Assembly (NCBI GenBank): GCA_945865815.1
Contig: CAMBFR010000046.1
Location: forward strand, 1 to 32,428
DNA from: Candidatus Sulfopaludibacter sp. SbA3
Lineage (GTDB): Bacteria; Acidobacteriota; Terriglobia; 20CM-2-55-15
DNA length: 32,428 bases
Direction of reading: 5' to 3'
The number at the start of each line of letters is the position of its first letter. Position 1 is the stretch's first letter. A program made the translations under genes and the position numbers. Under the pieces are notes generated by a model that worked only from the letters and a program-made list of their open reading frames with translations, searched no databases and was not told the DNA's origin. Below, piece after piece: positions 3,797-27,874 of this stretch.

Positions 3797-4714
3797 ATGC
3801 GAAACATGGTCATTATCGGGTCCGGGCCGGCGGGCCTTACCGCCGCGGTTTATGCAGCGCGAGCCAATCTTCAGCCCATGCTGATCGAAGGCAAGGAGCC
3901 GGGCGGTCAATTGACGCTGACAACTCTGGTGGAGAATTATCCGGGATTCCCGGAAGGGATCATGGGCCCGAAGCTCATGGAAGACATGCGTAAGCAGGCC
4001 GAGCACTTCGGGGCTGAAATTGTTAACGGATACGTTCACGCCGTGAAGCTCCAGGAAAAGCCATTCCGCGTCTGCTACGGCGATCAGGAAGTGGAAGCGA
4101 AAACTGTTGTTATTTCCACCGGTTCGTCGGCAAAGCTGATCGGAATCAAGAGTGAACTGGAGTTGATGGGGCATGGCGTATCCACATGCGCAACATGCGA
4201 TGGATTTTTCTTCCGTGGCAAGGAGATCGCGGTCGTTGGCGGCGGGGATTCCGCAATGGAAGAAGCGACGTTCCTGACAAAGTTTGCGACCAGGGTTAGC
4301 CTGATCCATCGCCGCGACACGCTGCGGGCATCGAAGATCATGCAGGAACGGGCCGTCGCCAATCCAAAAATTCAGTTTGTCTGGAACACGGCGGTCGAGG
4401 AAGTGCTTGGCGACAAGGCGACGGGTGTGAAGGGACTACGCCTGAGGAACATCAAGACCGAGGACACTTCGGTTCTGAACGTTGACGGCCTGTTCGTAGC
4501 CATCGGCCACAATCCCAACACTGAAATTTTCCGCGGCCAGATCGACCTTGACGAGCGCGGCTACATCAAGACGCAGCCTTCTTCCACGCGGACGAACATT
4601 CCAGGTGTGTTCGCCTGTGGCGACGTCCAGGATCCCGTTTTCAGGCAGGCGATTACCGCCGCCGGCACCGGTTGTATGTCCGCCATAGAGGCCGAGAGGT
4701 GGCTGGAGCACTAG
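3797..4714 (+). CDS. trxB: Thioredoxin-disulfide reductase
   Basis: A 305-residue flavoprotein, normal length for low-molecular-weight thioredoxin reductase, which passes electrons from NADPH through FAD to thioredoxin in the cytoplasm. Visible signatures are the N-terminal FAD motif GSGPAG (residues 8-13), PGGQL, the redox-active pair CATC (C131, C134), the NADPH-binding VVGGGDSAMEEA (about 148-159) and the second FAD motif FACGDVQD near the C-terminus. A GGAG lies 8 bases before the ATG. A DUF2203 gene starts 10 bases after its stop and folB follows, so it probably heads a small operon. Confidence 0.95.
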   Translation: MRNMVIIGSGPAGLTAAVYAARANLQPMLIEGKEPGGQLTLTTLVENYPGFPEGIMGPKLMEDMRKQAEHFGAEIVNGYVHAVKLQEKPFRVCYGDQEVEAKTVVISTGSSAKLIGIKSELELMGHGVSTCATCDGFFFRGKEIAVVGGGDSAMEEATFLTKFATRVSLIHRRDTLRASKIMQERAVANPKIQFVWNTAVEEVLGDKATGVKGLRLRNIKTEDTSVLNVDGLFVAIGHNPNTEIFRGQIDLDERGYIKTQPSSTRTNIPGVFACGDVQDPVFRQAITAAGTGCMSAIEAERWLEH

Positions 4715-4724
4715 GCCGGATCCA

Positions 4725-5129
4725 ATGAGTGAGCAAACCTACGAGAAGCTCTTCACGCTTGCTGAAGCGAATACTCTCCTTCCGAGATTGAGAACGGTCC
4801 TGGAGGACGTTGCCGAGGTCTGGGGCCGAATGAAGGCGCTCCACCCCGAGATACAGAAAGCCCGCGACAGCGCTCCATTCGATGGCTACAGCCCCTACGG
4901 CGTCGAGTACGTCGAGTGCGTGGCGCGCCTCATGTTTCTCATTCATCAGATCAAGGAGATGGGCGTGGTGCTGAAGGACGTGGACAGGGGGCTGTGCGAT
5001 TTTCCGTATATGCGCGATGGCCGCGTCGTGTATCTGTGCTGGCACCTGGGTGAAGATAAGATCGAATACTGGCACGATATCGAATCCGGATTCGACGGCC
5101 GCGAGCCGCTGGACAGCCGCGATAAGTAG
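4725..5129 (+). CDS. DUF2203 family protein
   Basis: A 134-residue soluble protein recognised as DUF2203 from FTLAEANTLLPRLR near the N-terminus and the C-terminal GVVLKDVDRGLCDFP, then DGRVVYLCWHLGEDKIEYWHD with a GFDGREPL tail. The family has no established function. The N-terminal third is predicted helical and could self-associate. It lies 10 bases after trxB and 18 bases before folB on the same strand, which suggests co-transcription. No signal peptide or membrane segment is seen. Confidence 0.85.
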   Translation: MSEQTYEKLFTLAEANTLLPRLRTVLEDVAEVWGRMKALHPEIQKARDSAPFDGYSPYGVEYVECVARLMFLIHQIKEMGVVLKDVDRGLCDFPYMRDGRVVYLCWHLGEDKIEYWHDIESGFDGREPLDSRDK

Positions 5130-5147: not shown

Positions 5148-5504
5148 ATGGACAAGATCCTCATTTCTGAAATCGACTGTGTAGCCGCAATCGGGGTCAC
5201 GTCTGAAGAGCGGACCATGAAACAGCGGCTTTCGATCGATATCGAGTTGTCCGTCGACGCGGCGCACCCGGCCCAGAGTGATTCGCTCCGGGACGCCCTG
5301 GACTACTCCCGGGTTGCCAGCGCCGTCCAGGAGGTCTGCCGCAGCCGGGACTTCCACCTGATCGAGACTCTGGCCGAGCGGATTGCCGCCCGGATTCTGT
5401 CCGATTTTTCCACCGGGCAGGTGCGGGTCCTTGTGCGTAAACTCTCGCCCGTGCTGGAACCTCGAGTGAAATGCGTATCAATAGAGATCGTGCGTTCCCG
5501 GTGA
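5148..5504 (+). CDS. folB: Dihydroneopterin aldolase
   Basis: A 118-residue FolB, normal length for the family. FolB converts 7,8-dihydroneopterin to 6-hydroxymethyl-7,8-dihydropterin and glycolaldehyde in folate synthesis. Family features visible are the N-terminal ILISEIDCVAAIGVTSEER (the conserved Glu after the IGV segment), DALDYSRVA with the pterin-pocket tyrosine, the HLIETLAERIA helix and the closing VRVLVRKLSPVL. It follows the DUF2203 gene closely. The next gene on this strand is a radical SAM enzyme whose archaeal relative was once assigned to methylation of the FolB product, so the adjacency deserves attention. No other fol gene is in the window. Confidence 0.92.
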   Translation: MDKILISEIDCVAAIGVTSEERTMKQRLSIDIELSVDAAHPAQSDSLRDALDYSRVASAVQEVCRSRDFHLIETLAERIAARILSDFSTGQVRVLVRKLSPVLEPRVKCVSIEIVRSR

Positions 5505-5573
5505 TCCTGGGGTGATACTTACCGAGACCGTCCGTAATCCTTAGGAAACCCAAGTAGTTGCCGAAAATTTCTG

Positions 5574-5603
5574 TTGAGATCCCAAACACAACTGAGCTAT
5601 CCT
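5574..5603 (+). promoter_or_regulatory. Possible promoter for the radical SAM gene
   Basis: TTGAGA (5574-5579), an 18-base spacer and TATCCT (5598-5603) lie in the 189-base gap between folB and the radical SAM start. The fit to consensus is moderate, so the gene may have its own promoter or read through from folB. Confidence 0.35.
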
Positions 5604-5652
5604 CACACTCCGTTTTTAGTCTGGATCTTTTGGTCTTCATCAAAAAGCGCCA

Positions 5653-5681
5653 GTTTCACCAGGATCCGGTTTCACCAGGAT
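5653..5681 (+). repeat. 13-base direct repeat just before the radical SAM ribosome site
   Basis: GTTTCACCAGGAT occurs at 5653-5665 and again at 5669-5681, separated by three bases. It ends immediately before the AAGGAGG ribosome binding site (5682-5688). It may be a slippage product or a binding site in the leader. Confidence 0.85.
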
Positions 5682-5693
5682 AAGGAGGCATCT

Positions 5694-7814
5694 TTGTCTA
5701 CGACTCAAGAATCGGTCGAAACACCGCAAACCGACTACACCGTCCGAAACAAATTCAAAGCCAAGCTGAGCACACGTATTATCAAGTACGTCGATGCGGC
5801 GGTCTGCTCCAGCGCCGGCGTGGCGTTCGACACGATCCAATACTTCAACAAGTTCAATCCAAACCCTTCTTTCACTCCGAAGTGGTCTGAGAAACCCTTG
5901 CTGAAATCCTGGCAAAAGACGAAACCGACTCTCGGTTTTCCCCGGCAGACCGATTCGCTCTGCCCGGAGTGCGTCAAGGAAGCCCGCGAAAAGATCTTCA
6001 GCGGCACAACCGAGTGGACCGAACTGCTCCACGAGAAAGTCGGCGAAGTTAAAGCCAGCATCATCGAGCGGGACGGCCAGGTCTGGATGGTCAAGGATTG
6101 TCCCGAGCATGGACATTTTGAAGACATCATGGCCGTCGACGTGAAGTTCCTGGAATGGATCGAGAAGAACTTTCCCGGCCGCGACATTCCGGCGCACAAC
6201 GATGCCGACCTGCACAACCACGGCAGCAGCACGATCAAGCATGGCCGCGGCTCCGTCCTGACGGTCGATCTGACGAACCGCTGCAACATGATGTGCGATC
6301 CCTGCTTCATGGATGCCAACCAGGTTGGCTACGTTCATGAACTGACGTGGGAAGAGATCAAGGAAATCATGGACAACGCCATGAAGATCAAACCGCGCCG
6401 GCAGATGTCGATCCAGTTTTCGGGTGGAGAGCCGACCGTGTCGCCGTACTTCATCGATGCCGTTGCTTATGCCCGCAAGCTCGGATTCCAGAGCGTGCAG
6501 GCCGCGACGAACGGAATCGAGTTCGCACAGAACCCGGAATTCGCCAAGAAGGCGGCCGAAGCAGGTCTCCGTTACGCGTACCTTCAATTCGACGGCATCG
6601 GAAACGATGCGAACAGCCATCGCCAGATCGGCAACCTGTTCGACGTGAAGCTTCGCGCCATTAACAACCTGCATGCCGCAGGCGTGGAGATCATCCTGGT
6701 GGTCACGCTGGTGAACAGCGTCAACAATGACCAGGTCGGTTCGATCCTGCGCTTCGCGATGGACAATCCGAAGAAGGTTGCATTTATCGCCTTCCAGCCG
6801 GTTTCGTTTACAGGCCGCGACGAAGACATCACGCCGGAACGCCGCCTCCGCCAGCGTTATACGTTGTCGCACCTGGCCAACGACGTCAGGGACCAGGTCG
6901 GGATCACCGAACCGACGCGCGATTGGTTTCCGCTCTCATTGATGGGCGCCTTCGCCGATTTCGCGGATCTCGTTCACGGTCCGGGCGCGGACTGGGGCCA
7001 GGTAAGCTGCGGCTGCCATCCCAATTGCGGTGTTGGCACGGCTCTGATGATCAACAAGGAAACCAAGGAATTCGCGCCGGTTCCGCAGTTCCTGAACATT
7101 CCTGGCCTCGTCAGCGATATGCAGCAGGTCACCGACGCCGGCCGCGGCAAGTGGTTCTCGAATTCGATGATGGGCCTGGCACTCCTGAAGAACTACAACC
7201 CGTTCGGCGGACCCCCGAGCCTCCGGCTGTGGGACATTCTCAGGAAGTTCGACAAGTCGTTCGGACTTTCCGGCAAGAGCTATGGAAAGGTGACGAGCGA
7301 CCGCAGCAAGCAAGACATCGAGAAACGGCGAAGCGACCCCTGGAACTTCCTGTTCGTTGCCGGTATGTGGTTCCAGGATCTGTTCAACTACGATTTCCGC
7401 CGCACCGAGATGTGCATCATTCCTTATGCAACGCAGCTCGGCGAGATCTCCTTCTGCGCCTACAACACCGGTATCGGCTGGCGGAAGATCATCGAGAACA
7501 TGTACAAGACCGCCAGCGTCGCAGAGTGGAACAAAGTACACGGCAAGCACGCGGTTTATGCCGGCGGCAAGGAAGTTCCGCTCACGAGCTTCGAGCATAG
7601 TCTCGTTATCAATGCGCAGGATGCGGCTCGCGTTCGGGAGAAGGGCGCCGAGCCCGAAACCGCTGCTGAAGAGGAGATACTGGCGCGTCAGGCGGCGCGG
7701 ACCCGGGAAGCCACAAAGATGAAGCAGATGATGGATGAGTTAACGTTTGGTAAGAACCTTGGCTCGAGCGAAGCGGCTGAGCTGGTCAAGATCGAACTGG
7801 CTGCAAGAAAGTAG
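5694..7814 (+). CDS. Radical SAM enzyme, Tes/MSS (COG1964) type; candidate membrane-spanning lipid synthase
   Basis: A 706-residue protein. The TTG at 5694 is chosen because AAGGAGG (5682-5688) sits 5 bases upstream; the in-frame ATG at 5574 lacks such a site. Cysteine sets in order are C90/C93 (CPEC) and C136 (CPEHG), a rubredoxin-like N-terminal site; C197/C201/C204, the CxxxCxxC radical SAM cluster, followed by GGEP (244-247); C439/C441/C445 (CGCHPNC); and C574/C588. This layout matches archaeal tetraether lipid synthase (MJ0619) and the bacterial MSS proteins linked to iso-diabolic acid in Acidobacteriota. By analogy it would join two lipid tails carbon to carbon. An alternative is pterin methylation, the older proposal for MJ0619, which the folB neighbour keeps open. 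A charged helical tail runs from about 640 to 706. The specific substrate is inference. Confidence 0.85.
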   Translation: MSTTQESVETPQTDYTVRNKFKAKLSTRIIKYVDAAVCSSAGVAFDTIQYFNKFNPNPSFTPKWSEKPLLKSWQKTKPTLGFPRQTDSLCPECVKEAREKIFSGTTEWTELLHEKVGEVKASIIERDGQVWMVKDCPEHGHFEDIMAVDVKFLEWIEKNFPGRDIPAHNDADLHNHGSSTIKHGRGSVLTVDLTNRCNMMCDPCFMDANQVGYVHELTWEEIKEIMDNAMKIKPRRQMSIQFSGGEPTVSPYFIDAVAYARKLGFQSVQAATNGIEFAQNPEFAKKAAEAGLRYAYLQFDGIGNDANSHRQIGNLFDVKLRAINNLHAAGVEIILVVTLVNSVNNDQVGSILRFAMDNPKKVAFIAFQPVSFTGRDEDITPERRLRQRYTLSHLANDVRDQVGITEPTRDWFPLSLMGAFADFADLVHGPGADWGQVSCGCHPNCGVGTALMINKETKEFAPVPQFLNIPGLVSDMQQVTDAGRGKWFSNSMMGLALLKNYNPFGGPPSLRLWDILRKFDKSFGLSGKSYGKVTSDRSKQDIEKRRSDPWNFLFVAGMWFQDLFNYDFRRTEMCIIPYATQLGEISFCAYNTGIGWRKIIENMYKTASVAEWNKVHGKHAVYAGGKEVPLTSFEHSLVINAQDAARVREKGAEPETAAEEEILARQAARTREATKMKQMMDELTFGKNLGSSEAAELVKIELAARK

Positions 7815-7860: not shown

Positions 7861-8391
7861 CTAAATCCCCAGTATCTTTTTACCCTCTTCCGAGATCCTT
7901 TGCGGCGACCATGCCGGTTCCCACACGACTTCGACCTTCGGTGTGGGAAATCCTGCTTCAGACAGCTTTGACTTTATGTCTTCTCCAATGGCCACGTGCG
8001 ACGGGCACATCGGGGAGGTCATGGACATCTTCACATTCACCGATTCCCGCAGGACCTTCACCTCGTAGATAAGTCCCAGGTCCACGACATTCAGGGGAAT
8101 CTCGGGGTCATAGCATCCCTTGAGGACTTCATATGCCAGGTCCTCCTGGGTCATGGATGCCAGCCGCGGATCGCGCGCTTTCGCAGCGAGGCTCTCGGCC
8201 ACCGTGGCTTCCACGGCGGCTTCAACGATCTTTGTGGACTCAGTGTAAATCTTTTGATCCCGAGCTCTTTCGGCCTCGGAAGCCGTTTCCTGGGTGATCC
8301 TGGACTGACGCCGCACTGCAACGGCTATCCCAATGACAAGCAAAACCGTTATTAGAAAAAACAGGTATGGCAGCACGTTGATGATTCTCAC
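7861..8391 (-). CDS. Membrane-anchored MIP18/DUF59 (SufT-like) Fe-S assembly protein
   Basis: A 176-residue protein starting at GTG (8389-8391). Residues about 5-26 form one transmembrane helix (LPYLFFLITVLLVIGIAVAV), followed by a charged helical linker to about 85. A C-terminal MIP18/DUF59 domain carries YDPEIPLNVVDLGLIYEV and MTSPMCPSHVAIGEDI with the conserved cysteine. DUF59 proteins such as SufT help deliver Fe-S clusters to client enzymes. An N-terminal membrane anchor is unusual for this normally soluble family. The gene is convergent with the radical SAM gene and divergent from the yjbQ-carrier-thiC run, so it sits between Fe-S-dependent enzymes. The start lacks a strong ribosome site, but the helix after it supports it. 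Confidence 0.85.
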   Translation of the reverse strand: MRIINVLPYLFFLITVLLVIGIAVAVRRQSRITQETASEAERARDQKIYTESTKIVEAAVEATVAESLAAKARDPRLASMTQEDLAYEVLKGCYDPEIPLNVVDLGLIYEVKVLRESVNVKMSMTSPMCPSHVAIGEDIKSKLSEAGFPTPKVEVVWEPAWSPQRISEEGKKILGI

Positions 8392-8456
8392 TGCTCGCGT
8401 ACCGTCACTTCAAGGCTTATTTCAACATTGAGCGGCGAAAGATTTAATAAGTTTTG

Positions 8457-8462
8457 TATAAT
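8457..8462 (+). promoter_or_regulatory. Possible -10 box upstream of yjbQ
   Basis: A perfect TATAAT lies 64 bases before the yjbQ ATG in an AT-rich pocket. No good -35 box is seen at 16-18 bases upstream, so the assignment is tentative. The divergent SufT-like gene starts at 8391 on the other side of the same intergenic region. Confidence 0.4.
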
Positions 8463-8526
8463 AACCGCTTGCGGCAACAACTTGAACGTCAACCGGCTGG
8501 CCGCATCATGAGGAGTTCTAAAGAAT

Positions 8527-9024
8527 ATGCCTTCTGCTCCAGTTAAAGCTCCGGAACAACTTACGGTTGAAGTCGCAACGGGTTCTTATCGGGTTGTCAG
8601 CAATATTGTCAGGATTCAGTCCGAGGAACGGGAGGATCTGTACAACCTGACACAATTGATCCGTGATTTTGTCAAGTCGTCGGGAGTCCGAGCGGGATCA
8701 CTCAGCGTTTCATCGCTCCATACGACGAGCACGATCTTCATCAACGAGTGGCAGGACGCGCTGGTCCACGACATGAAGACGTATTTAAGAGCACTTGTTA
8801 ATAAGGACGGCTACTTCCGCCACAATGATCCGGCCTGGTCCGATTGCGATCGGCGTAATGCAGACTCGCATCTGCGAAGCTTGCTGTTAGGTATGAACCT
8901 GTCCTTGCAGATTTCGGACGGAGATGTTGTTCTTGGTGAGTGGCAAAGCATTATCATGGCCGAACTCGATGGACCTCGCGAACGCACGATCCGGCTTCAA
9001 GCCATGGGGATTGCAGGCGAGTAA
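8527..9024 (+). CDS. yjbQ: YjbQ/UPF0047 family protein, secondary thiamine-phosphate synthase type
   Basis: A 165-residue protein with the family signatures SSLHTTSTIFINE, then YFRHNDPAWSDCDRRNADSHL (shown in parts: HND, RRNADSHL) and the C-terminal LGEWQSIIMAELDGPRERTI. E. coli YjbQ has weak thiamine-phosphate synthase activity; the true cellular role of the family is unsettled. An AGGAG at 8511-8515 precedes the ATG by 11 bases. The Fe-S carrier gene starts 24 bases after its stop, and thiC lies further on, so a thiamine-linked role fits the context. The N-terminal 15 residues are an extension beyond the core fold. Confidence 0.88.
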   Translation: MPSAPVKAPEQLTVEVATGSYRVVSNIVRIQSEEREDLYNLTQLIRDFVKSSGVRAGSLSVSSLHTTSTIFINEWQDALVHDMKTYLRALVNKDGYFRHNDPAWSDCDRRNADSHLRSLLLGMNLSLQISDGDVVLGEWQSIIMAELDGPRERTIRLQAMGIAGE

Positions 9025-9048
9025 TTAACGCGAAAGGGGAACACTACT

Positions 9049-9377
9049 ATGCCCATTAGTCTGACTGAGAAAGCCAAAGAGAAGGTAAAAGAGATCATGT
9101 CTGAACAGCCCGAACCCTTCGCCGGCCTGCGCATCCAGGTCGTCGGCGGCGGCTGCTCGGGATTCTCTTATCGAATGGGTTTCGATAAGGCTTTCAATGA
9201 ACAGTCCGATACCATGTTTGAATTCGACGGCCTGAAGGTGTTCGTCGACAAGGCCAGCCTGATGTATATGGATGGCGCCGAAGTCGACTACGTCGATGGA
9301 CTGCACGGCGCAGGCTTCAAGTTCAGCAACCCACAGTCATCCGGAAGTTGCGGTTGCGGTAGTTCGTTCAGCGTATA

Positions 9378-9378
<1 letters not shown>
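9049..9378 (+). CDS. A-type iron-sulfur carrier protein (IscA/ErpA family)
   Basis: A 109-residue protein, usual length for A-type carriers. The three cluster-binding cysteines are visible: C36 in GGGCSGFSY and C101/C103 in the CGCG near the C-terminus. Such proteins carry [2Fe-2S] or [4Fe-4S] clusters to apo-enzymes in the cytoplasm. GGGGA lies 8 bases before the ATG. It is placed between yjbQ and thiC, and ThiC needs a [4Fe-4S] cluster, so cluster delivery to ThiC is a reasonable inference. The TPP riboswitch begins right at its stop codon. The sequence does not separate ErpA from IscA or SufA with certainty. Confidence 0.92.
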
Positions 9379-11342
<1,964 letters not shown>

Positions 11343-12621: not shown

Positions 12622-13032
12622 TCAGAAACCTGCGACCTTTATTTCGGTAGCTGGACCGTCATAATCCCTAACGGTTCCGTCCGGATGCTTGATAAAGCCC
12701 AAAAGACAACCGGCCGAGCCGTCCCGCAACGGATGGCATCGCACTTTGACTTTGTCGCCGGCTTTTAGACCCTTACCCGCTTTTGCAAGGTCTTGAATTC
12801 CCCTGGCGCCACCCCCCTCTAACGCCCACAGTTGCGCGCTGCCGGCCGCGTCCGTGACGTTCACGTAGATCCAGGAATGCGGGTTAAGACCGTGTACTTC
12901 AGTAACGACACCCTCAAGATCCTTTGTTTCCTGGGTGTAGTTTCCGTGGGAATGGTGAGACCATGCCGGAAGGGCGACTGCAACCACGCCGATTACGGCG
13001 ATTCCAACAACAAGAGCCAGTTTGAAACGCAT
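12622..13032 (-). CDS. DUF6152 family secreted protein, copy 1
   Basis: A 136-residue exported protein. The ATG at 13030-13032 is chosen over one 18 bases upstream because AAGGAG lies 8 bases before it. A signal peptide ends near ALPAWS, and the mature protein starts HHSHGNY, a histidine-rich opening seen in the family. Conserved blocks are GVVTEVHGLNPHSWIYVNV, AQLWALEGG, AGDKVKVRCHPLRDGS and GCLLGFI. It is a small beta-rich periplasmic or secreted fold whose function is unknown; the N-terminal HHSH and internal NPHSW could bind metal (inference). It is paralogous to 18796-19188. A frameshifted relic of the same family lies 50 bases upstream of its start. Confidence 0.88.
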   Translation of the reverse strand: MRFKLALVVGIAVIGVVAVALPAWSHHSHGNYTQETKDLEGVVTEVHGLNPHSWIYVNVTDAAGSAQLWALEGGGARGIQDLAKAGKGLKAGDKVKVRCHPLRDGSAGCLLGFIKHPDGTVRDYDGPATEIKVAGF

Positions 13033-13082
13033 GCAAATTCTCCTTTTCATCTATTCAGAAACGTTAAATTCAATACAGGCTA

Positions 13083-15208: not shown

Positions 15209-16495
15209 CTACGCCTGCCAGATCTCCAGTTGTTTCTGGATATCGGCCATGAACTGATCGGCCATGGCGCCATCGATGACGCGGTGATCGAAAGAGAGCG
15301 AGAGGATGATCATCGAACGAATCGCGATGGCGTCGTCAATTACAACGGCCCGTTTCTTGATTCCCCCGAGGGACATGATCGCCACCTGGGGCTGGTTGAT
15401 GATCGGTGTTCCAGTCAGGCCGCCATATTGGCCGGGATTTGTAATCGTGAATGTGCCGTCCTTTACATCGTCGGGAGCGAGCTTCTTGTTCCGGGCGCGG
15501 TCTCCAAGATCGTTGATCGCCCGCGCCATTTCCAGCAGGCTCTTCCCGCCGGCATTCTTCAATACCGGAACGATGAGTCCCCCTTCGATATTGACTGCGA
15601 TTCCGATGTTGATTGCGCGCTTGTAGACGATCGTGTCGCCGTCGAGTGACGAATTCAACATTGGAAACCGCTTCAGCGCGCTCGCGGCCGCCTGGACGAA
15701 GTACGGTGTTACAGTCAGCTTCACGCCTGCCCGCTCGAATTCCGGCCTTGATTGTTCGCGCGCCTTCAGAATCCTGGAGCAATCCACCTCGAAGAAAGTG
15801 GTCACATGTGCTGAGGTTCTTCGGCTATGGACCATGTGTTCCGCGATGGATTTCCGTATGGCCGTCATCGGAACGCGTTCTCCCTCGCCCGTTGAAGCTG
15901 CTGGCTGAAGCGGCTGAAGCGGCTGAAGCGGCTGAAGCGATGGCTGCGCCGGAGGCGCGGCAGGCCTGGCGGGTGGAATTGGCGCCGGGGGCGCAATGAT
16001 CCCGGTTTTTGCTCCCGTTCCGCCCTGCTCGATGTGGCTCAGAATGTCGCGTTTCGTGATCCGTCCGCCGATGCCGGTTCCTTTTCCGGACAGTGCCACC
16101 AGCGTCACTCCGTGCTCTCTTGCGATCCGCCGCACCAACGGCGATGAGCGTACGTCCGGTTCGCGGCCTTCCCTCGTCCTTGCAGGCTCTACGGTTGTTT
16201 CCGCTTTCTGCGGAGGGGATGGAGCGGCGGTTTCTGAAGGCCCGGATGCCGCCGACTCGTCGCCAATAACCGCTACAACGGTATTGATCTGCACGGTCTG
16301 GCCTTCAGTCACCAGGACATCCTGAAGCACGCCGGATGCGGGTGAAGGAATTTCGGAGTCCACCTTGTCCGTGGAGATCTCAAACAGCGGCTCATCGCGT
16401 TGGACGCGGTCGCCCTTTTTCTTGAGCCACTTTGTGAGGGTTCCTTCGAAGATGCTTTCCCCCATCTGGGGCATGATTACTTTTGTTTCGGCCAT
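15209..16495 (-). CDS. 2-oxoacid dehydrogenase E2, dihydrolipoamide acyltransferase
   Basis: A 428-residue E2 core subunit. Domains in order are one lipoyl domain (1-77; lipoylated K44 in STDKVDSE), a linker, an E3/E1-binding domain (about 113-150; SPLVRRIAREHGV ... GRITKRDIL), a Pro/Ala linker with four LQP repeats, and a catalytic acyltransferase domain ending SFDHRVIDGAMADQF, with H404 and D408 as catalytic residues. It takes the acyl group from E1 and gives it to CoA. The acyl specificity (pyruvate, branched-chain or 2-oxoglutarate) is not fixed by these motifs; a two-gene E1 argues against the one-piece 2-oxoglutarate E1. It starts 3 bases after the E1 beta stop. No E3 gene is in the window. 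Confidence 0.93.
   Translation of the reverse strand: MAETKVIMPQMGESIFEGTLTKWLKKKGDRVQRDEPLFEISTDKVDSEIPSPASGVLQDVLVTEGQTVQINTVVAVIGDESAASGPSETAAPSPPQKAETTVEPARTREGREPDVRSSPLVRRIAREHGVTLVALSGKGTGIGGRITKRDILSHIEQGGTGAKTGIIAPPAPIPPARPAAPPAQPSLQPLQPLQPLQPAASTGEGERVPMTAIRKSIAEHMVHSRRTSAHVTTFFEVDCSRILKAREQSRPEFERAGVKLTVTPYFVQAAASALKRFPMLNSSLDGDTIVYKRAINIGIAVNIEGGLIVPVLKNAGGKSLLEMARAINDLGDRARNKKLAPDDVKDGTFTITNPGQYGGLTGTPIINQPQVAIMSLGGIKKRAVVIDDAIAIRSMIILSLSFDHRVIDGAMADQFMADIQKQLEIWQA
15903..15938. repeat. Four tandem 9-base units in the E2 linker
   Basis: GGCTGAAGC is repeated four times exactly, encoding the (LQP)n stretch of the flexible E2 linker on the minus strand. Being in multiples of three, copy-number change would keep the frame and only alter linker length. 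Confidence 0.95.
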
Positions 16496-16498
16496 GTT

Positions 16499-17473
16499 TT
16501 AGTATGCGTAAAGTTCACGTGCGACGCGAATCACGTCGGAGACTTTTGGAAGGAAGAATTCTTCCAGTGGAGGACTGTAGGGCACAGGCGTGTCTGGAGC
16601 CGTAATGCGGCGGATTGGCCCATCGAGATATTCAAAAGCCTCTTCGGAGATGACCGAGGCCAGTTCGCCGGCAAAACCGCCGATTCGCGTGTCTTCGTGA
16701 AGCAGGATTACCTTGTTCGTTTTCTTCACTGTATCCAGGACTGCTTCGCGATCGAAGGGAAGCAGAGACCGAAGATCCAGCACCTCCAGATCGATTCCTT
16801 CTTTCTCAAGTTGCCTGGCGGCGTCGAGGGCCGTGTAGACCATCGCTCCGTATGTAATGACGGAAATATCTGTGCCATGCCGGCGAATTGCAGCCTTGCC
16901 GATCGGCACAACAAAGTCATCGGCCGGAAGTTCTTCCTTGATCCGGCGATAAAGAAACTTGTGCTCGAAATAAATCACCGGATCGGGATCCCGGATTGCA
17001 GCCTTGATCAATCCCTTGGCGTCATACGCCGTTGAGGGACAGACCACCTTCAGGCCCGGCGTATGAACGTAGTACATCTCGGGGTTTTGCGAGTGGAACG
17101 GGCCGCCATGAACTCCGCCGCCGCTTGGCGCGCGAACGACAATCGGAACCCCCGCGCCCCATCGATACCGGGACTTGGCAGCGAAATTGGTGATCTGGTC
17201 GAATGCGCATGAAATGAAGTCCGCAAACTGCATTTCAGCGATCGGCCGCATGCCCATCAGCGCCGCGCCGATGGCCGCGCCGACAATGGCGGATTCGGAG
17301 ATTGGCGTGTCGATAATCCGCCATTCGCCGAATCGTTCGAGCATTCCGGCGGTGACTTTGAACGCGCCGCCGTAAATGCCGACATCTTCGCCAAGGACGA
17401 ACACGCGTTCGTCCTTTTCCATTTCTTCCCAGATTCCCTGGCGGATGGCTTCAACGTACGTAGTGAGCGCCAT
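16499..17473 (-). CDS. 2-oxoacid dehydrogenase E1 beta subunit
   Basis: A 324-residue E1 beta subunit of the alpha2beta2 pyruvate/branched-chain type. Family blocks are YVEAIRQGIWEEMEKDERVFVLGEDVG at the start (shown as EDVG, with the ThDP-contacting Glu), DTPISESAIVGAAIGAALMG, GMRPIAEMQFADF, HGGPFHSQNPE, RDPDPVIYFEHK and LRSLLPFDREAVLDTVKKTN. With E1 alpha it forms the ThDP site that decarboxylates a 2-oxoacid and acylates E2 lipoate. It lies 46 bases after E1 alpha and 3 bases before E2. The sequence alone leaves pyruvate versus branched-chain 2-oxoacid open. Confidence 0.93.
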   Translation of the reverse strand: MALTTYVEAIRQGIWEEMEKDERVFVLGEDVGIYGGAFKVTAGMLERFGEWRIIDTPISESAIVGAAIGAALMGMRPIAEMQFADFISCAFDQITNFAAKSRYRWGAGVPIVVRAPSGGGVHGGPFHSQNPEMYYVHTPGLKVVCPSTAYDAKGLIKAAIRDPDPVIYFEHKFLYRRIKEELPADDFVVPIGKAAIRRHGTDISVITYGAMVYTALDAARQLEKEGIDLEVLDLRSLLPFDREAVLDTVKKTNKVILLHEDTRIGGFAGELASVISEEAFEYLDGPIRRITAPDTPVPYSPPLEEFFLPKVSDVIRVARELYAY

Positions 17474-17519
17474 TAGTTTACTGGCTGCGCCCTATCGGGC
17501 TTGCATTCGCAGCCGCTCA

Positions 17520-18545
17520 TTAGCCCTCGTAATAAACGTCCTTCAAGGTGTCGTCCGGATCCGGGAACGGATCCTTCTCTGCAATCTGAATGGCCTCGTC
17601 GATTTCCCGGTTGATCCGCTTGTCGATCTCTTCGATGCCGCCCGGCGCAATCACGCCGCGCTCGGTGAGGTAGCGCTCGAATCGTTTGATCGGATCGCGC
17701 TCTTCCCACAGTTCGAAGAGCTCGCGCGGCACATATCCCGCGTCGTCATGTGCGGAATGGCCGGTCATCCGGAAGGTCTTACACTCGATGAGTGTGGGGC
17801 CGTGACCCCCGCGTGCCCGTTCGACGGCCCGCGCGGCGGCATCCCAGACGGCCAGCACATCGTTGCCGTCGACGATCTCTCCCGGTATGCCGTAGGCTTC
17901 GGCCCTGTCGGCCACATTCGCAACGGCCATCTGCCGTTCCAGCGGAGTGGAATACGCATACTGGTTGTTGTTGCAGATGAATACAACGGGCACTTTCAAG
18001 ACGGCCGCCATGTTCACGCCTTCGTGGAAATCACCCCGGCTTGTTGCGCCGTCTCCGAAGAAGCAGAGGGCCACGCGGTCCTGGCCGCGTATCTTGAACG
18101 ACAAGCCGATGCCCGCCGCGACGGGAATGTTGTCGGCCAGCATGCTCACAAAGGGGACCAGATTGAGGTTCAGGTCACCCATATGCATGTTGCCGTCCTT
18201 GCCGCGAGTCGCGCCGGTCTTCCGCGCCATGTATTGCGCGAAGATCGTCCGCAGCGACATGCCGCGAATCAAAAACGCGCCCATGTCGCGATGAGAAGGG
18301 CAGACCACATCCTCGTGCCGCATATCGATACAGGCGCCTACGGCAATAGCCTCCTGGCCCCGGCCCACATAAACGCCGCCGACGATCTTGCCCTGCCGGT
18401 ACAGTTTCCGCTCGATGCGGAACTCCAGTTCCCGCGTCAGCTTCATGTAATAAAGCATGCCGTGCAGGGTCTTTTCAGGTGGAGGAGCAGTAAGTTGGAT
18501 AGTGCCGCCGGGGACCGCGTGCGGTTTCACATCGTTCACATTCAT
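17520..18545 (-). CDS. 2-oxoacid dehydrogenase E1 alpha subunit
   Basis: A 341-residue E1 alpha subunit. The thiamine diphosphate motif runs from GDGATSRGDFHEGVN (GDG at 164-166) to the CNNNQYAYST block (N192-N194). HRDMGAF, GRGQEAIAVG and FRMTGHSAHDDAGYVP are further family blocks; the last is the regulatory/active-site loop of PDH and BCKDH-type E1. It catalyses oxidative decarboxylation of a 2-oxoacid with E1 beta. It is the first gene of the operon, with a predicted promoter 30-60 bases upstream, and its leader has no strong ribosome site. An alanine/proline-rich N-terminal stretch of about 25 residues precedes the core. Confidence 0.93.
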   Translation of the reverse strand: MNVNDVKPHAVPGGTIQLTAPPPEKTLHGMLYYMKLTRELEFRIERKLYRQGKIVGGVYVGRGQEAIAVGACIDMRHEDVVCPSHRDMGAFLIRGMSLRTIFAQYMARKTGATRGKDGNMHMGDLNLNLVPFVSMLADNIPVAAGIGLSFKIRGQDRVALCFFGDGATSRGDFHEGVNMAAVLKVPVVFICNNNQYAYSTPLERQMAVANVADRAEAYGIPGEIVDGNDVLAVWDAAARAVERARGGHGPTLIECKTFRMTGHSAHDDAGYVPRELFELWEERDPIKRFERYLTERGVIAPGGIEEIDKRINREIDEAIQIAEKDPFPDPDDTLKDVYYEG

Positions 18546-18795: not shown

Positions 18796-19188
18796 TTAGT
18801 CCCACTCCTTCTCGACGCCATGTCCTCGCGCCGCATCGCCATGCACGGGCGTCACAAACCCGAGGAGACAGCCGTTGGAGCCGTCTTTGAGCAGGTGGCA
18901 CCGCACTTTGATGGTGTCACCCGGCTTGACGTCTTCGCGCTTGATCCCGTTTCCCTGGAGCCCGGCCGGACCAGTGGCTTCCATCGCCCACACCGCAGAC
19001 TGACCTTTGTCGTCTTTGATTTCGACGTAGATCCAGGAATGCGGGTTGATCAACGTCACTCGCTTGACCGTACCCTGAAAGGGCGTCCACACCGTTGTGT
19101 CGTAGGCGCCGTGGGAATGGTGCGCCGAAGACGGCAGCGCCACGAAAATAGAAAAAATGGCCGCAAGACTAAAGTATCTCAACTGCAT
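18796..19188 (-). CDS. DUF6152 family secreted protein, copy 2
   Basis: A 130-residue exported protein. The ATG at 19186-19188 is chosen because AGGAGGTG lies just upstream; an in-frame ATG 24 bases earlier lacks a site. A signal peptide ends at about PSSA, and the mature protein starts HHSHGAYD. Family blocks match copy 1: GTVKRVTLINPHSWIYVEI, SAVWAMEATG, KPGDTIKVRCHLLKDGSNG and CLLGFVTP. Function is unknown. It lies 64 bases after the stop of its secreted neighbour on the same strand, so the two are probably one transcript, while the corresponding pair at 11.8-13.0 kb is convergent. Confidence 0.88.
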   Translation of the reverse strand: MQLRYFSLAAIFSIFVALPSSAHHSHGAYDTTVWTPFQGTVKRVTLINPHSWIYVEIKDDKGQSAVWAMEATGPAGLQGNGIKREDVKPGDTIKVRCHLLKDGSNGCLLGFVTPVHGDAARGHGVEKEWD

Positions 19189-19252
19189 GGTCACCTCCTG
19201 ACATCCGAACAAATGGTTTCACGATCATCTATTGATTGCGTATTACAGCCGG

Positions 19253-24522: not shown

Positions 24523-25434
24523 ATGATTCGCACTTCCTTATTTGTTGTTTTTGTGGAGATGTTTCTCTGCATCGCCGCCTACCCGCAAACTGCGATCAAT
24601 CCAAAAGCGCCCTTCACGTCCAGGGATGTCGATCTCTGGAAACAGATGCAGGCGCGGCGTCCAGAGACTCAGCGGCAAAGCCCGAACATCGCTACTGGTG
24701 AGCCGTTCAAGGTTCTCGGCAATCTCTACTCTGTTGGCGTTCCCATCGGCAATTCGTTTCTCCTGACCTCGCCCCAGGGTCACATGTTGCTGAACACCGG
24801 CTATGCGGAATCGGCAGAACAAATGGGCAGGAACATCGAGGCGCTCGGATTCAAGTTATCCGATATCAAGATTCTTTTGCCCACTCATTGGCATAACGAC
24901 GGCGGCGGCGGGACGGCGTATTTCAAGGAGAAGACCGGCGCGGCTGTGATGGCCGGCGCGAGTGATATCGCTTTCCTCCAGGCCGGAGGAGAGGGAAATC
25001 AGAGGATACCTGCGGTCAAAGTCGACCGCGCCGTTTTCAACGGGGATGTCATTACACTGGGTCCGCTAAGTGTTACCGCGTACACGATTCCCGGACACAC
25101 TCCGGGATCGACGAGTTTCAGTTTTAAAGTCCGCGAAGAAAATCAGGACTACACCGTATTCCAGTACTGCTGTGGCCAGAATATCCCGCAGAATTTCAGC
25201 GCTAACCCGAATTACTCGGACGCCGGAATGCGGCATACGTTCGAAGTGTTCCGCAAAGTGCTTCCGGTGGATGTGTACGTTTGGGGACCTTCTTCCGGCT
25301 TTTTCCTGGCGGCGCGTCTGGCAAAGTTCAAGGCGGGCGACAAACTCGCATTCGTCGATCGTTCCACTTTTCCAGCATTCGCGGCATGGCTCGAAGTGGA
25401 GTACGAAACCAAAGTCAGGAACCTTGCGCAGTAG
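24523..25434 (+). CDS. Exported metallo-beta-lactamase-fold protein, B3-like with altered metal ligands
   Basis: A 303-residue protein with a signal peptide (hydrophobic to about IAAYPQT) and an MBL fold of the subclass B3 type. The first metal motif is THWHNDGG: H122, H124 and D126 are present, but the His expected after the Asp is G127. The third His is in IPGHTPGST (H192). At the place where B3 enzymes have the last His ligand, the sequence reads WGPSSGFF with no His. So the Zn1 triad looks complete and the Zn2 site keeps only Asp. It may be a one-metal enzyme or have a different activity; beta-lactam hydrolysis should not be assumed. The ribosome site is weak. C216 and C217 are adjacent. 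Confidence 0.85.
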   Translation: MIRTSLFVVFVEMFLCIAAYPQTAINPKAPFTSRDVDLWKQMQARRPETQRQSPNIATGEPFKVLGNLYSVGVPIGNSFLLTSPQGHMLLNTGYAESAEQMGRNIEALGFKLSDIKILLPTHWHNDGGGGTAYFKEKTGAAVMAGASDIAFLQAGGEGNQRIPAVKVDRAVFNGDVITLGPLSVTAYTIPGHTPGSTSFSFKVREENQDYTVFQYCCGQNIPQNFSANPNYSDAGMRHTFEVFRKVLPVDVYVWGPSSGFFLAARLAKFKAGDKLAFVDRSTFPAFAAWLEVEYETKVRNLAQ

Positions 25435-25481: not shown

Positions 25482-27125
25482 TCACTTCAGCGAAATAATT
25501 CGTTTCCAGTATTCCCACGCTCGATCGGAGCCGGTAGGTCCACCCCCATCTCCGGTTGGGACCAGAGGCGCCTGCTGTACTACCGGTCCTGTTTGCGCTG
25601 CCGGTTGCCCATCGAGATAAGAGATCTGGCCGCGAAGGGCAATGGCCTGCTGCTGGATTTTCGCGTTCATGCGCAGGTTGTATGCCCGGCTGATCAGCGC
25701 ATACAGAGATATGTCGGTGAGCGCAACGCCGTGGCCCGTGAGCAGCACGGCCGGCTTACTCCCCATCACTTCGGCGACACCGCGGCCGAGCGCGGGGCTG
25801 GTGATAATCGTTTCCCGCGGATCAAACTTCCGGATGTCGAACATGGGCAGGCCGTCGCCGATAAACGTTCCGCCATTCATTACCGGCCGTAGTTTTACCG
25901 AACTCTGTGTGAACGCGACGATCTCCGGCGTGTGCGCATGCAAAACGGCCATGACGTCGGGCCGGGCCTTGTAGATCTCCCCGTGCATGTAGATTTCCTG
26001 AAACTGATCGTTTCGAGGCGCTCCGACGGCCTTGCTGTCGAGGTCATTCTCTATGATGTCGGCCGCAGTGACGACTCCGGCAGAGACGTAACGCGGAATG
26101 AAGTAGTGACTGGGATCGTTGGGGTTTCGGACACTCACGTGGCCAAACGCATCGAGGATTCCCAACTCCGGAGACGCCAGCATGCGGCTGGCAAGAGCCA
26201 GGTCCTGCTTGATTGCATCACCCGGGGAAGCGGGCGCCGCCGGCCCTGGCGGAGTCGTCGCGGGAACACTTCCGCCGGTTTCCCGGAGTACCAATTGTTT
26301 CCAGTATTCCCACGCGCGATCGCCGCCTCTTCCGCCGCCTGTGCCGCTGGGAGCTGGTTCCGCCGGCGTGGGCGCCGGAGGCGGAGTGGCCGCCTGCACC
26401 GTGGCTCGTCTTGGATTGGGATCCCATGATCCGCCCATCGCAATCATGGTTTGATGCAGCCGCGCGGTACTTCGAAGGCCATTTGCACTGCTCACCAGGT
26501 TGTAGATCGAGCCGCTCGCGACGACAACACCGTGTCCGAGCAGGAGCACGGCGCCGTTACTGCCGAGCGTCTCCGCCACGGCCTTGCCGGAAGCGGGATT
26601 GTTGACGCCTGAGGACCGGCCGTTATTGAATTTCCGGGAGTCCCAGATGGGGACCGGCGTGTCGCCGGTGCGCAACGGGACCGAACTCACCGAGAACGCC
26701 ACAAGTTCGGGCGTATGCGAATGCATGACGGCCATGACGTCCGGCCTTGCCTTGTAGATCTCGCCGTGGATATAGACTTCCTGGTACTCATCGGAGCGCG
26801 GGCCCGCAACCGGTTTGCTGTCGAGGTCGTTTTCGATGATGTCTCCCATCGCGACAATGCCGGGCGACACGTATCGTGAAATGTAGAAGTGATCGGGATT
26901 CGTACGGCTGCGAACGCTTACATGCCCGAAAGCGTCCAATACTGCCAGTTCACCGGACGCGAGCATTCGATTCGCAAGAACGAGTTCCTCAACGAGCGCT
27001 TGCTCCGGATGGGCAGGGGACTGCGCTTCGTTGGGAGTGGTTTCCGAAGGGGAGCAACTTCCCAGGACAAGAGCCAGCATTCCGGTAAGCCCGGTCAGAC
27101 CAATGAGGGATAGGCTGCATTTCAT
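25482..27125 (-). CDS. Lipoprotein with two tandem class II aldolase/adducin domains
   Basis: A 547-residue predicted lipoprotein. The ATG at 27125 follows AAGGAGACGG; residues 1-23 form a signal peptide with lipobox LGSC (lipidated C24). Domain 1 (about 42-245) and domain 2 (about 303-505) are both class II aldolase/adducin folds. Their metal and catalytic sets are complete, by alignment to fuculose-phosphate aldolase: E116, H135, H137, H198 and E377, H396, H398, H465. Each domain is followed by a Pro/Gly-rich stretch and a DRAWEYWK motif (269-276 and 534-541), so the whole unit was duplicated. Known members cleave sugar phosphates in the cytoplasm; a membrane-anchored, exported double form is unusual and its substrate is unknown. 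It lies 14 bases after the 244-residue secreted protein. Confidence 0.9.
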   Translation of the reverse strand: MKCSLSLIGLTGLTGMLALVLGSCSPSETTPNEAQSPAHPEQALVEELVLANRMLASGELAVLDAFGHVSVRSRTNPDHFYISRYVSPGIVAMGDIIENDLDSKPVAGPRSDEYQEVYIHGEIYKARPDVMAVMHSHTPELVAFSVSSVPLRTGDTPVPIWDSRKFNNGRSSGVNNPASGKAVAETLGSNGAVLLLGHGVVVASGSIYNLVSSANGLRSTARLHQTMIAMGGSWDPNPRRATVQAATPPPAPTPAEPAPSGTGGGRGGDRAWEYWKQLVLRETGGSVPATTPPGPAAPASPGDAIKQDLALASRMLASPELGILDAFGHVSVRNPNDPSHYFIPRYVSAGVVTAADIIENDLDSKAVGAPRNDQFQEIYMHGEIYKARPDVMAVLHAHTPEIVAFTQSSVKLRPVMNGGTFIGDGLPMFDIRKFDPRETIITSPALGRGVAEVMGSKPAVLLTGHGVALTDISLYALISRAYNLRMNAKIQQQAIALRGQISYLDGQPAAQTGPVVQQAPLVPTGDGGGPTGSDRAWEYWKRIISLK

Positions 27126-27139
27126 TTTTCCGTCTCCTT

Positions 27140-27874
27140 CTACCGCGGCGCCGGCTTTCCGTAGACCTCGATCCATGCGAAATCCGAATAACCGCCCGGG
27201 CCATGACCGCTGCCCGGCATCAAGTCGACGAAGCCGACTTCTTCAATTTTGCTCAGGTCCGGACTGTTGACCCATCCGGACAGATTCCCCGTTGCCGTTA
27301 CGACCTTGTTGATATCGAGCCGGCGCCACCGCACATCGCTGATCGAGAATTCACGGACCAGCCAGTCCGCCCCTTCCGTGAATTCATCCGCATGATTTCC
27401 AACCAGCCATGTGCCGTCGGCAAGTTTCACTACCGGACGGATTGCGTGGTAGCCGGTCGTCTTGACGTACCACCGGATCTTTGAACCGAATCCGGACAGA
27501 TCGACATTTTGAGTCTTATGGCGAAGCCCCATTGCGCAGGGCTTGTTGCAGGTTCCGGTGAATAAATGAGGCGGTTCCTCGTCGTCCCGATGATTCATCC
27601 ACATCCCGCCATGCGTATGCTGTTCCTCGGGCGCCGCGCGCCCCGCCGGCCTGGGATCGTCCTTTGGCTGCTCACCGTAAAATCGGAGTTCCAGGTTCGC
27701 GTTTGTCACATTCTGCGGACTGGCCGGGCCCTCCACCAGTCCGCCTGGAAACTGGCGTTTCCACTCTTCACGGAAGAATAGTCCGGGCCGGCCCGGACGC
27801 TGTCCTCTTTGCCCGGCTTCGACCCAGAACGAAACCAGGCAGATCAGTGCCGCCGCAACAAGAATGCTTCGTCG
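27140..27874 (-). CDS. Secreted protein of unknown function
   Basis: A 244-residue exported protein. The GTG at 27874 is chosen because GGAGG lies 5 bases upstream and a signal peptide follows at once (RRSILVAAALICLVSFWVEA); an in-frame ATG 36 bases earlier lacks a site. The mature part has a basic Gly/Arg stretch, REEWKRQFPGG, HTHGGMWMNHRDDE, and FTGTCNKPCAMGLRHK with two cysteines. From about 130 it reads as a beta-sandwich (IRWYVKTTGYHAIRPVVKL, FVDLMPGSGHGPGG, FAWIEVYGKP), like carbohydrate-binding or DUF1080-like jelly rolls, but I cannot assign a family. It is probably co-transcribed with the aldolase lipoprotein. Confidence 0.8.
   Translation of the reverse strand, partial: RRSILVAAALICLVSFWVEAGQRGQRPGRPGLFFREEWKRQFPGGLVEGPASPQNVTNANLELRFYGEQPKDDPRPAGRAAPEEQHTHGGMWMNHRDDEEPPHLFTGTCNKPCAMGLRHKTQNVDLSGFGSKIRWYVKTTGYHAIRPVVKLADGTWLVGNHADEFTEGADWLVREFSISDVRWRRLDINKVVTATGNLSGWVNSPDLSKIEEVGFVDLMPGSGHGPGGYSDFAWIEVYGKPAPR

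Follow-up and report, generated by a model that had tools for sequence, protein, structure and literature searches.

The stretch of DNA analysed here (32,428 nucleotides; hereafter the window) places a radical SAM gene just downstream of folB, and thereby raises the question of whether the encoded protein acts on the tails of membrane lipids or on a pterin. We propose that it probably couples iso-branched fatty-acyl tails into membrane-spanning iso-diabolic acid lipids, and that folB is unrelated to this reaction. The gene order described in an earlier sequence-only reading was confirmed (Table 1): FolB scored above both family cut-offs (PF02152, 100.9 bits against 31.8; TIGR00525, 91 bits against 72), and the radical SAM reading frame follows on the same strand after a gap of 189 bp, with AGGAGG 5 bases upstream of the start codon at position 5694. 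A promoter-like site lies within this gap (5574–5603), although such matches were no commoner than in shuffled sequence. This FolB was the only one detected in the genome, and HPPK is encoded elsewhere rather than beside folB, which fits an ordinary folate pathway; we judged folB to be a housekeeping neighbour of the radical SAM gene.

Table 1 Genes and ligand sites at the folB-radical SAM locus (window coordinates; MJ0619 equivalents in brackets).
Feature	Position	Strand	Basis or remark
trxB, thioredoxin reductase TrxB	3797..4714	+	upstream of DUF2203-folB in the window's clade
DUF2203 gene	4725..5129	+	18 bp from folB
folB, dihydroneopterin aldolase FolB	5148..5504	+	PF02152, TIGR00525
Radical SAM gene	5694..7814	+	706 aa, TTG start; Tes superfamily, acidobacterial type
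Rubredoxin-like site C90, C93, C136, H139 (C9, C12, C33, H36)	5961..6110	+	alignment; PF23545 Zn_ribbon_HMPTM, 58.5 bits
Residues 163-177, place of the N-auxiliary ligands (C73/C77/C80)	6180..6224	+	ligands absent, H174/H176 instead
Radical SAM CxxxCxxC: C197, C201, C204	6282..6305	+	
CGCHPNC: C439, C441, C445 (C445 = C338)	7008..7028	+	alignment
C-terminal cluster region: M558 (M439), C574 (C455), Y578 (Y459), C588 (C470)	7365..7457	+	

Profile and structure searches placed the radical SAM protein in the Tes superfamily. It matched the Tes profile (NCBIfam NF045702) with 325 bits (E = 7e-97) over profile positions 1–484, covering the C-terminal lipid domain and missing the equivalog cut-off of 450 bits, and it matched PDB 7TOL (GDGT-MAS, MJ0619) with E = 6e-65 (223 bits). 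An AF2 model built from a 67-sequence alignment (pLDDT 89.5, pTM 0.89) retrieved 7TOM and 7TOL in Foldseek at E ~1e-35 (TMt 0.85–0.86, 554–557 columns), spanning the full length of GDGT-MAS including its C-terminal lipid domain; the matches ranked after these two covered the radical SAM core alone. The closest named records were a 'Candidatus Sulfopaludibacter sp. SbA3' MAG contig at 96% identity and a 'gp5' MAG at 84%.

Comparison with MJ0619, whose numbering and ligands follow PMC9433317, revealed that the multi-site cysteine layout of Tes, as claimed in the sequence-only reading, is kept except at one cluster, a gap that this reading had overlooked. The motifs CPEC, CPEH, CxxxCxxC and CGCHPNC are present together with C574 and C588, all invariant or nearly so in relatives; whereas no counterparts of C73/C77/C80, the ligands of the N-terminal auxiliary [4Fe-4S] cluster, were found, the alignment showing a gap in the window protein and in the clade relatives inspected. 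This stretch instead reads ...HNHGSS..., with H174 and H176 near-invariant among relatives. At the rubredoxin-like site, MJ0619 C9/C12 lie outside the alignable stretch, and C90/C93 were paired with them through the CX2C...CX2H pattern and the PF23545 match. Among the SAM-site residues named in PMC9433317, F205, G245, Y296, D300, Q368, S371 and R375 are kept, the sole change being R210 to Q311. From their conservation and position, C338, C455 and C470 of MJ0619 would be the ligands of the C-terminal cluster; PMC9433317 names the labile Met439 of this cluster and the conserved Tyr459. C439 and C441 are extra cysteines without an equivalent in MJ0619, and almost all clade relatives keep them.

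We then surveyed 247 Acidobacteriota genomes with the Tes profile. The top matches fell into two groups, canonical Tes (472–619 bits, 29 of 247 genomes) and the window's type (~290–350 bits), the latter in ~120 of the 247 genomes, some of which hold a second copy at 47–56% identity. The N-auxiliary motif CPxxCGxC was present in 20/20 canonical Tes proteins of the phylum that we examined and in none of the inspected representatives of the window's type. In a mixture-model tree, 34 rows of this type separated from canonical Tes plus MJ0619 with a branch support of 100/100, a comparison in which archaeal Tes was represented by MJ0619 residues 15–495 only, as one long branch; a quick tree with long-branch warnings gave the same split. 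The phylogeny proposed in the earlier reading placed the protein in a well-supported acidobacterial clade, apart from the canonical enzymes. Of the 27 genomes in family f2 (same class as the window, by inference the SD1 Acidobacteriaceae), 12 gave no match at E ≤ 0.001 other than this gene type. It is also carried by Pyrinomonadaceae loci and, alongside paralogues, by genomes fitting Chloracidobacterium. Some genomes encode shorter TrsS/Tes-like proteins (~460–580 aa) that keep the N-auxiliary motif, and some, such as G091 and G157, hold further Tes-superfamily paralogues. At two loci (L195 in G115, L198 in G070), the window's type and canonical Tes lie ~4–6 kb or less apart on the same strand, with an opposite-strand ORF of ~1060 aa between them, possibly a lipid locus of one genus.

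The whole-length match to the GDGT-MAS fold, the retained catalytic ligands and the wide spread in a phylum known for iso-diabolic acid together argue for acyl-tail coupling, and so lend support to the lipid half of the earlier reading. By analogy with GDGT-MAS, we infer a reaction in which membrane phospholipids would have two of their iso-branched fatty-acyl tails joined through the terminal methyl carbons: one SAM would be cleaved at the C197/C201/C204 cluster, and the 5'-deoxyadenosyl radical would take a hydrogen from one chain end. The resulting carbon radical would be trapped as an S-C intermediate by the C-terminal [4Fe-4S] cluster (C445/C574/C588, M558), until a radical generated on the other tail with a second SAM attacked this intermediate to form the C-C bond. 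Iso-branched fatty acids and isoprenoid chains share the same terminal structure (PMC8941075). Tail-to-tail joining of two iso-C15 acids is the likely origin of iso-diabolic acid, which accounts for 20–40% of the fatty acids of SD1/SD3 cultures and has been reported in SD1, 3, 4 and 6 (PMC13274423). Pyrinomonas (SD4) and Chloracidobacterium also produce it (PMC4644332, PMC12816986). The brGDGT producer Edaphobacter aggregans encodes only one Tes homologue, 32% identical to MA_1486 (PMC8941075), the same level as that between the window's type and MJ0619 (33–34%). Against the coupling reading stand the missed Tes equivalog cut-off, the absent N-terminal auxiliary cluster and the hydrophobic positions of the MJ0619 C-domain, only 43 of 69 of which remain so in 80% or more of clade members. 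Moreover, the Tes-superfamily paralogues noted above could be the real coupling enzyme in the genomes that hold them.

When the ORFs lying within 4.5 kb of 129 radical SAM loci were clustered all against all, none of the resulting neighbour families reached beyond 15 of the 129, so that the gene behaves as a unit on its own. Besides the window, a search with an iterated FolB profile found folB next to the radical SAM gene only in L054/L035, L055, L056 and L057/L037, and those rows that entered the mixture-model tree formed one clade (100/99). The adjacency, which the earlier reading had suggested testing across Acidobacteriota, did not prove conserved: it occurs in 4/103 non-redundant loci (mutual identity ≤90%, flanked by 2 kb or more on each side unless folB was present), all of them in that clade. 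The closest partner of folB there is DUF2203, since both lie in a single 252-aa ORF in L055 (3480–4235), which suggests fusion or tight coupling of the two. The folB linkage is a chance neighbourhood within one clade and gives no evidence of function.

These observations weigh heavily against the view that the protein is a bacterial pterin-modifying enzyme, methylating or otherwise modifying the 6-hydroxymethyl-dihydropterin supplied by FolB as was once proposed for MJ0619, a view that we consider highly improbable. Its appeal lies in the short same-strand distance to folB in the window, in the adjacency in four close relatives and in the Pfam name of the N-terminal domain, which is still HMPTM. 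FolB was, however, detected in only 34 of 119 Acidobacteriota genomes (assumed to be those with the lowest-numbered handles), being absent from 33 of the 53 with a strong radical SAM match and present in 20/53 against 14/66 of the others (Fisher p = 0.066). Among the family f2 genomes listed, 12/12 have the radical SAM gene without FolB, and in the 19 genomes besides the window's that have both, the two always lie on different contigs. FolB in the window is, in addition, far closer to DUF2203 than to the radical SAM gene. The usual dihydroneopterin aldolase thus seems to be missing from much of Acidobacteriota, where another enzyme may replace it. According to PMC9433317, the group that solved the MJ0619 structure could not corroborate the pterin methylase role and, after structure determination and biochemical assays on the protein, replaced it with lipid coupling; the pocket is described there as a hydrophobic channel holding lipids, which makes a pterin unlikely, and phytanyl ends were coupled in vitro. 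We therefore rejected the pterin branch on the one-clade linkage, the co-occurrence and the superseded MJ0619 assignment. The sequence-only reading had stated that clustering deep within MSS in the absence of conserved folB linkage would reject the pterin idea; with Tes as the reference group, we observed this combination.

Two further alternatives stay with lipids. Some other radical chemistry on lipid tails, or on a different hydrophobic substrate, such as mid-chain methylation at C5/C6, ring closure or cross-linking to another partner, would suit a clade that has lost one metallocluster and has the near-invariant extra C439 and C441 at its catalytic cluster, and several Tes-superfamily paralogues do occur together in some genomes; we regard it as unlikely, because the C-terminal cluster, Met and Tyr positions match those of the coupling enzyme and the type is widespread in the phylum where iso-diabolic acid is common. 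Tail coupling on ether lipids, turning iso-C15 diethers into brGDGTs as has been suggested for Solibacter usitatus, would be in keeping with the diether substrates of Tes and with the two Tes homologues of S. usitatus, itself a brGDGT producer (PMC10087280). Mss and Tes are, however, thought to be indifferent to ester or ether bonds (PMC13274423), so the ether question becomes one of partner genes. A search of the window's genome (assembly 98% complete) for DUF2229 and BcrAD_BadFG found no DUF2229/PlsA-type protein and a single, short BcrAD_BadFG protein, hence no PlsA/Ger-type ether enzyme. An ester-linked product is accordingly likelier than a brGDGT, and we rate ether-lipid coupling here as rather improbable; coupling of acyl tails, with a product that is probably ester-linked in this genome, is the reading we prefer.

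Several other features of the window were recorded. Just downstream (7861–11342), genes for YjbQ (secondary thiamine-phosphate synthase), an IscA/ErpA-type protein and ThiC lie together, and the strand opposite to them encodes a SufT/DUF59-like protein (7861–8391) that has a hydrophobic stretch at its N-terminus. An IscA/ErpA-type gene lies within 2 kb of the radical SAM gene in 11 of the 103 loci, a proximity that is suggestive only. Two DUF6152 genes on the minus strand (12622–13050, 18796–19212) flank genes for a cytochrome c, a hexapeptide protein and 2-oxoacid dehydrogenase E1/E2. The E1/E2 genes (15209–18545) were considered as a branched-chain dehydrogenase supplying iso-acyl units; they proved PDH-like or ambiguous, and were therefore left out as evidence for such a supply. 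Further along are a metallo-beta-lactamase fold protein that is subclass B3-like and below its family cut-off (24523–25434; 194 bits against 240) and a 564-aa protein with two tandem class II aldolase/adducin stretches (25482–27176).

Published work already describes Tes homologues in Acidobacteria and proposes that they make membrane-spanning lipids (PMC8941075, PMC10087280), and the only fresh point, as read from the alignments, is the apparent clade-wide loss of one Fe-S cluster, of which we found no description in the open-access literature searched. Nor did that literature yield an experimental assignment of the iso-diabolic acid synthase in Acidobacteriota. We give about even odds to a broader proposal, that the clade is the main iso-diabolic acid synthase of the phylum and performs Csp3-Csp3 coupling with three rather than four metallocofactors, its C-terminal cluster perhaps re-ligated by C439/C441. 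If so, the N-terminal cluster would be dispensable, and a dominant membrane lipid of soil would have its enzyme identified, iso-diabolic acid being a major acidobacterial membrane lipid and a building block of the brGDGTs used as soil palaeothermometers. With a widespread, well-defined clade that supplies the sole detectable Tes-superfamily gene in 12 sampled genomes, the synthase question becomes testable, and the cofactor loss offers a natural experiment on the need for each Tes cluster. The negative result is also of use, in that the pterin reading is closed and folB linkage no longer counts as evidence.

Set against known systems, the protein lacks the conserved association with pterin genes expected of a radical SAM pterin methylase, the old assignment of MJ0619. 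The TrsS radical SAM (seleno)protein (NF045646) is its second-best profile, at 220 bits against a cut-off of 490, and the TrsS/Tes-like paralogues found in the phylum align, for the most part, with Tes positions ~1–317 alone. With Mss, the bacterial membrane-spanning lipid synthase reported in Acidobacteria (PMC11868695, PMC13274423), the likeness noted is the proposed coupling of acyl tails; should a validated Mss fall within the clade, the protein would simply be an Mss. Canonical acidobacterial Tes belongs to the same superfamily and lies within ~8 kb of the window's type in G070 and G115, but differs in its higher profile scores, its CPxxCGxC motif and its place on the opposite side of the tree. 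The closest likeness is to Tes/GDGT-MAS itself (MJ0619, 7TOL/7TOM, NF045702), with which the protein shares the full-length fold, the rubredoxin site, the radical SAM cluster, the C-terminal ligands and the equivalents of Met439 and Tyr459; whereas it differs in its 34% identity, its score below the equivalog cut-off, its missing N-terminal auxiliary cluster, the extra C439/C441, and N- and C-terminal extensions, the former bearing a 28-residue helix (residues 25–52).
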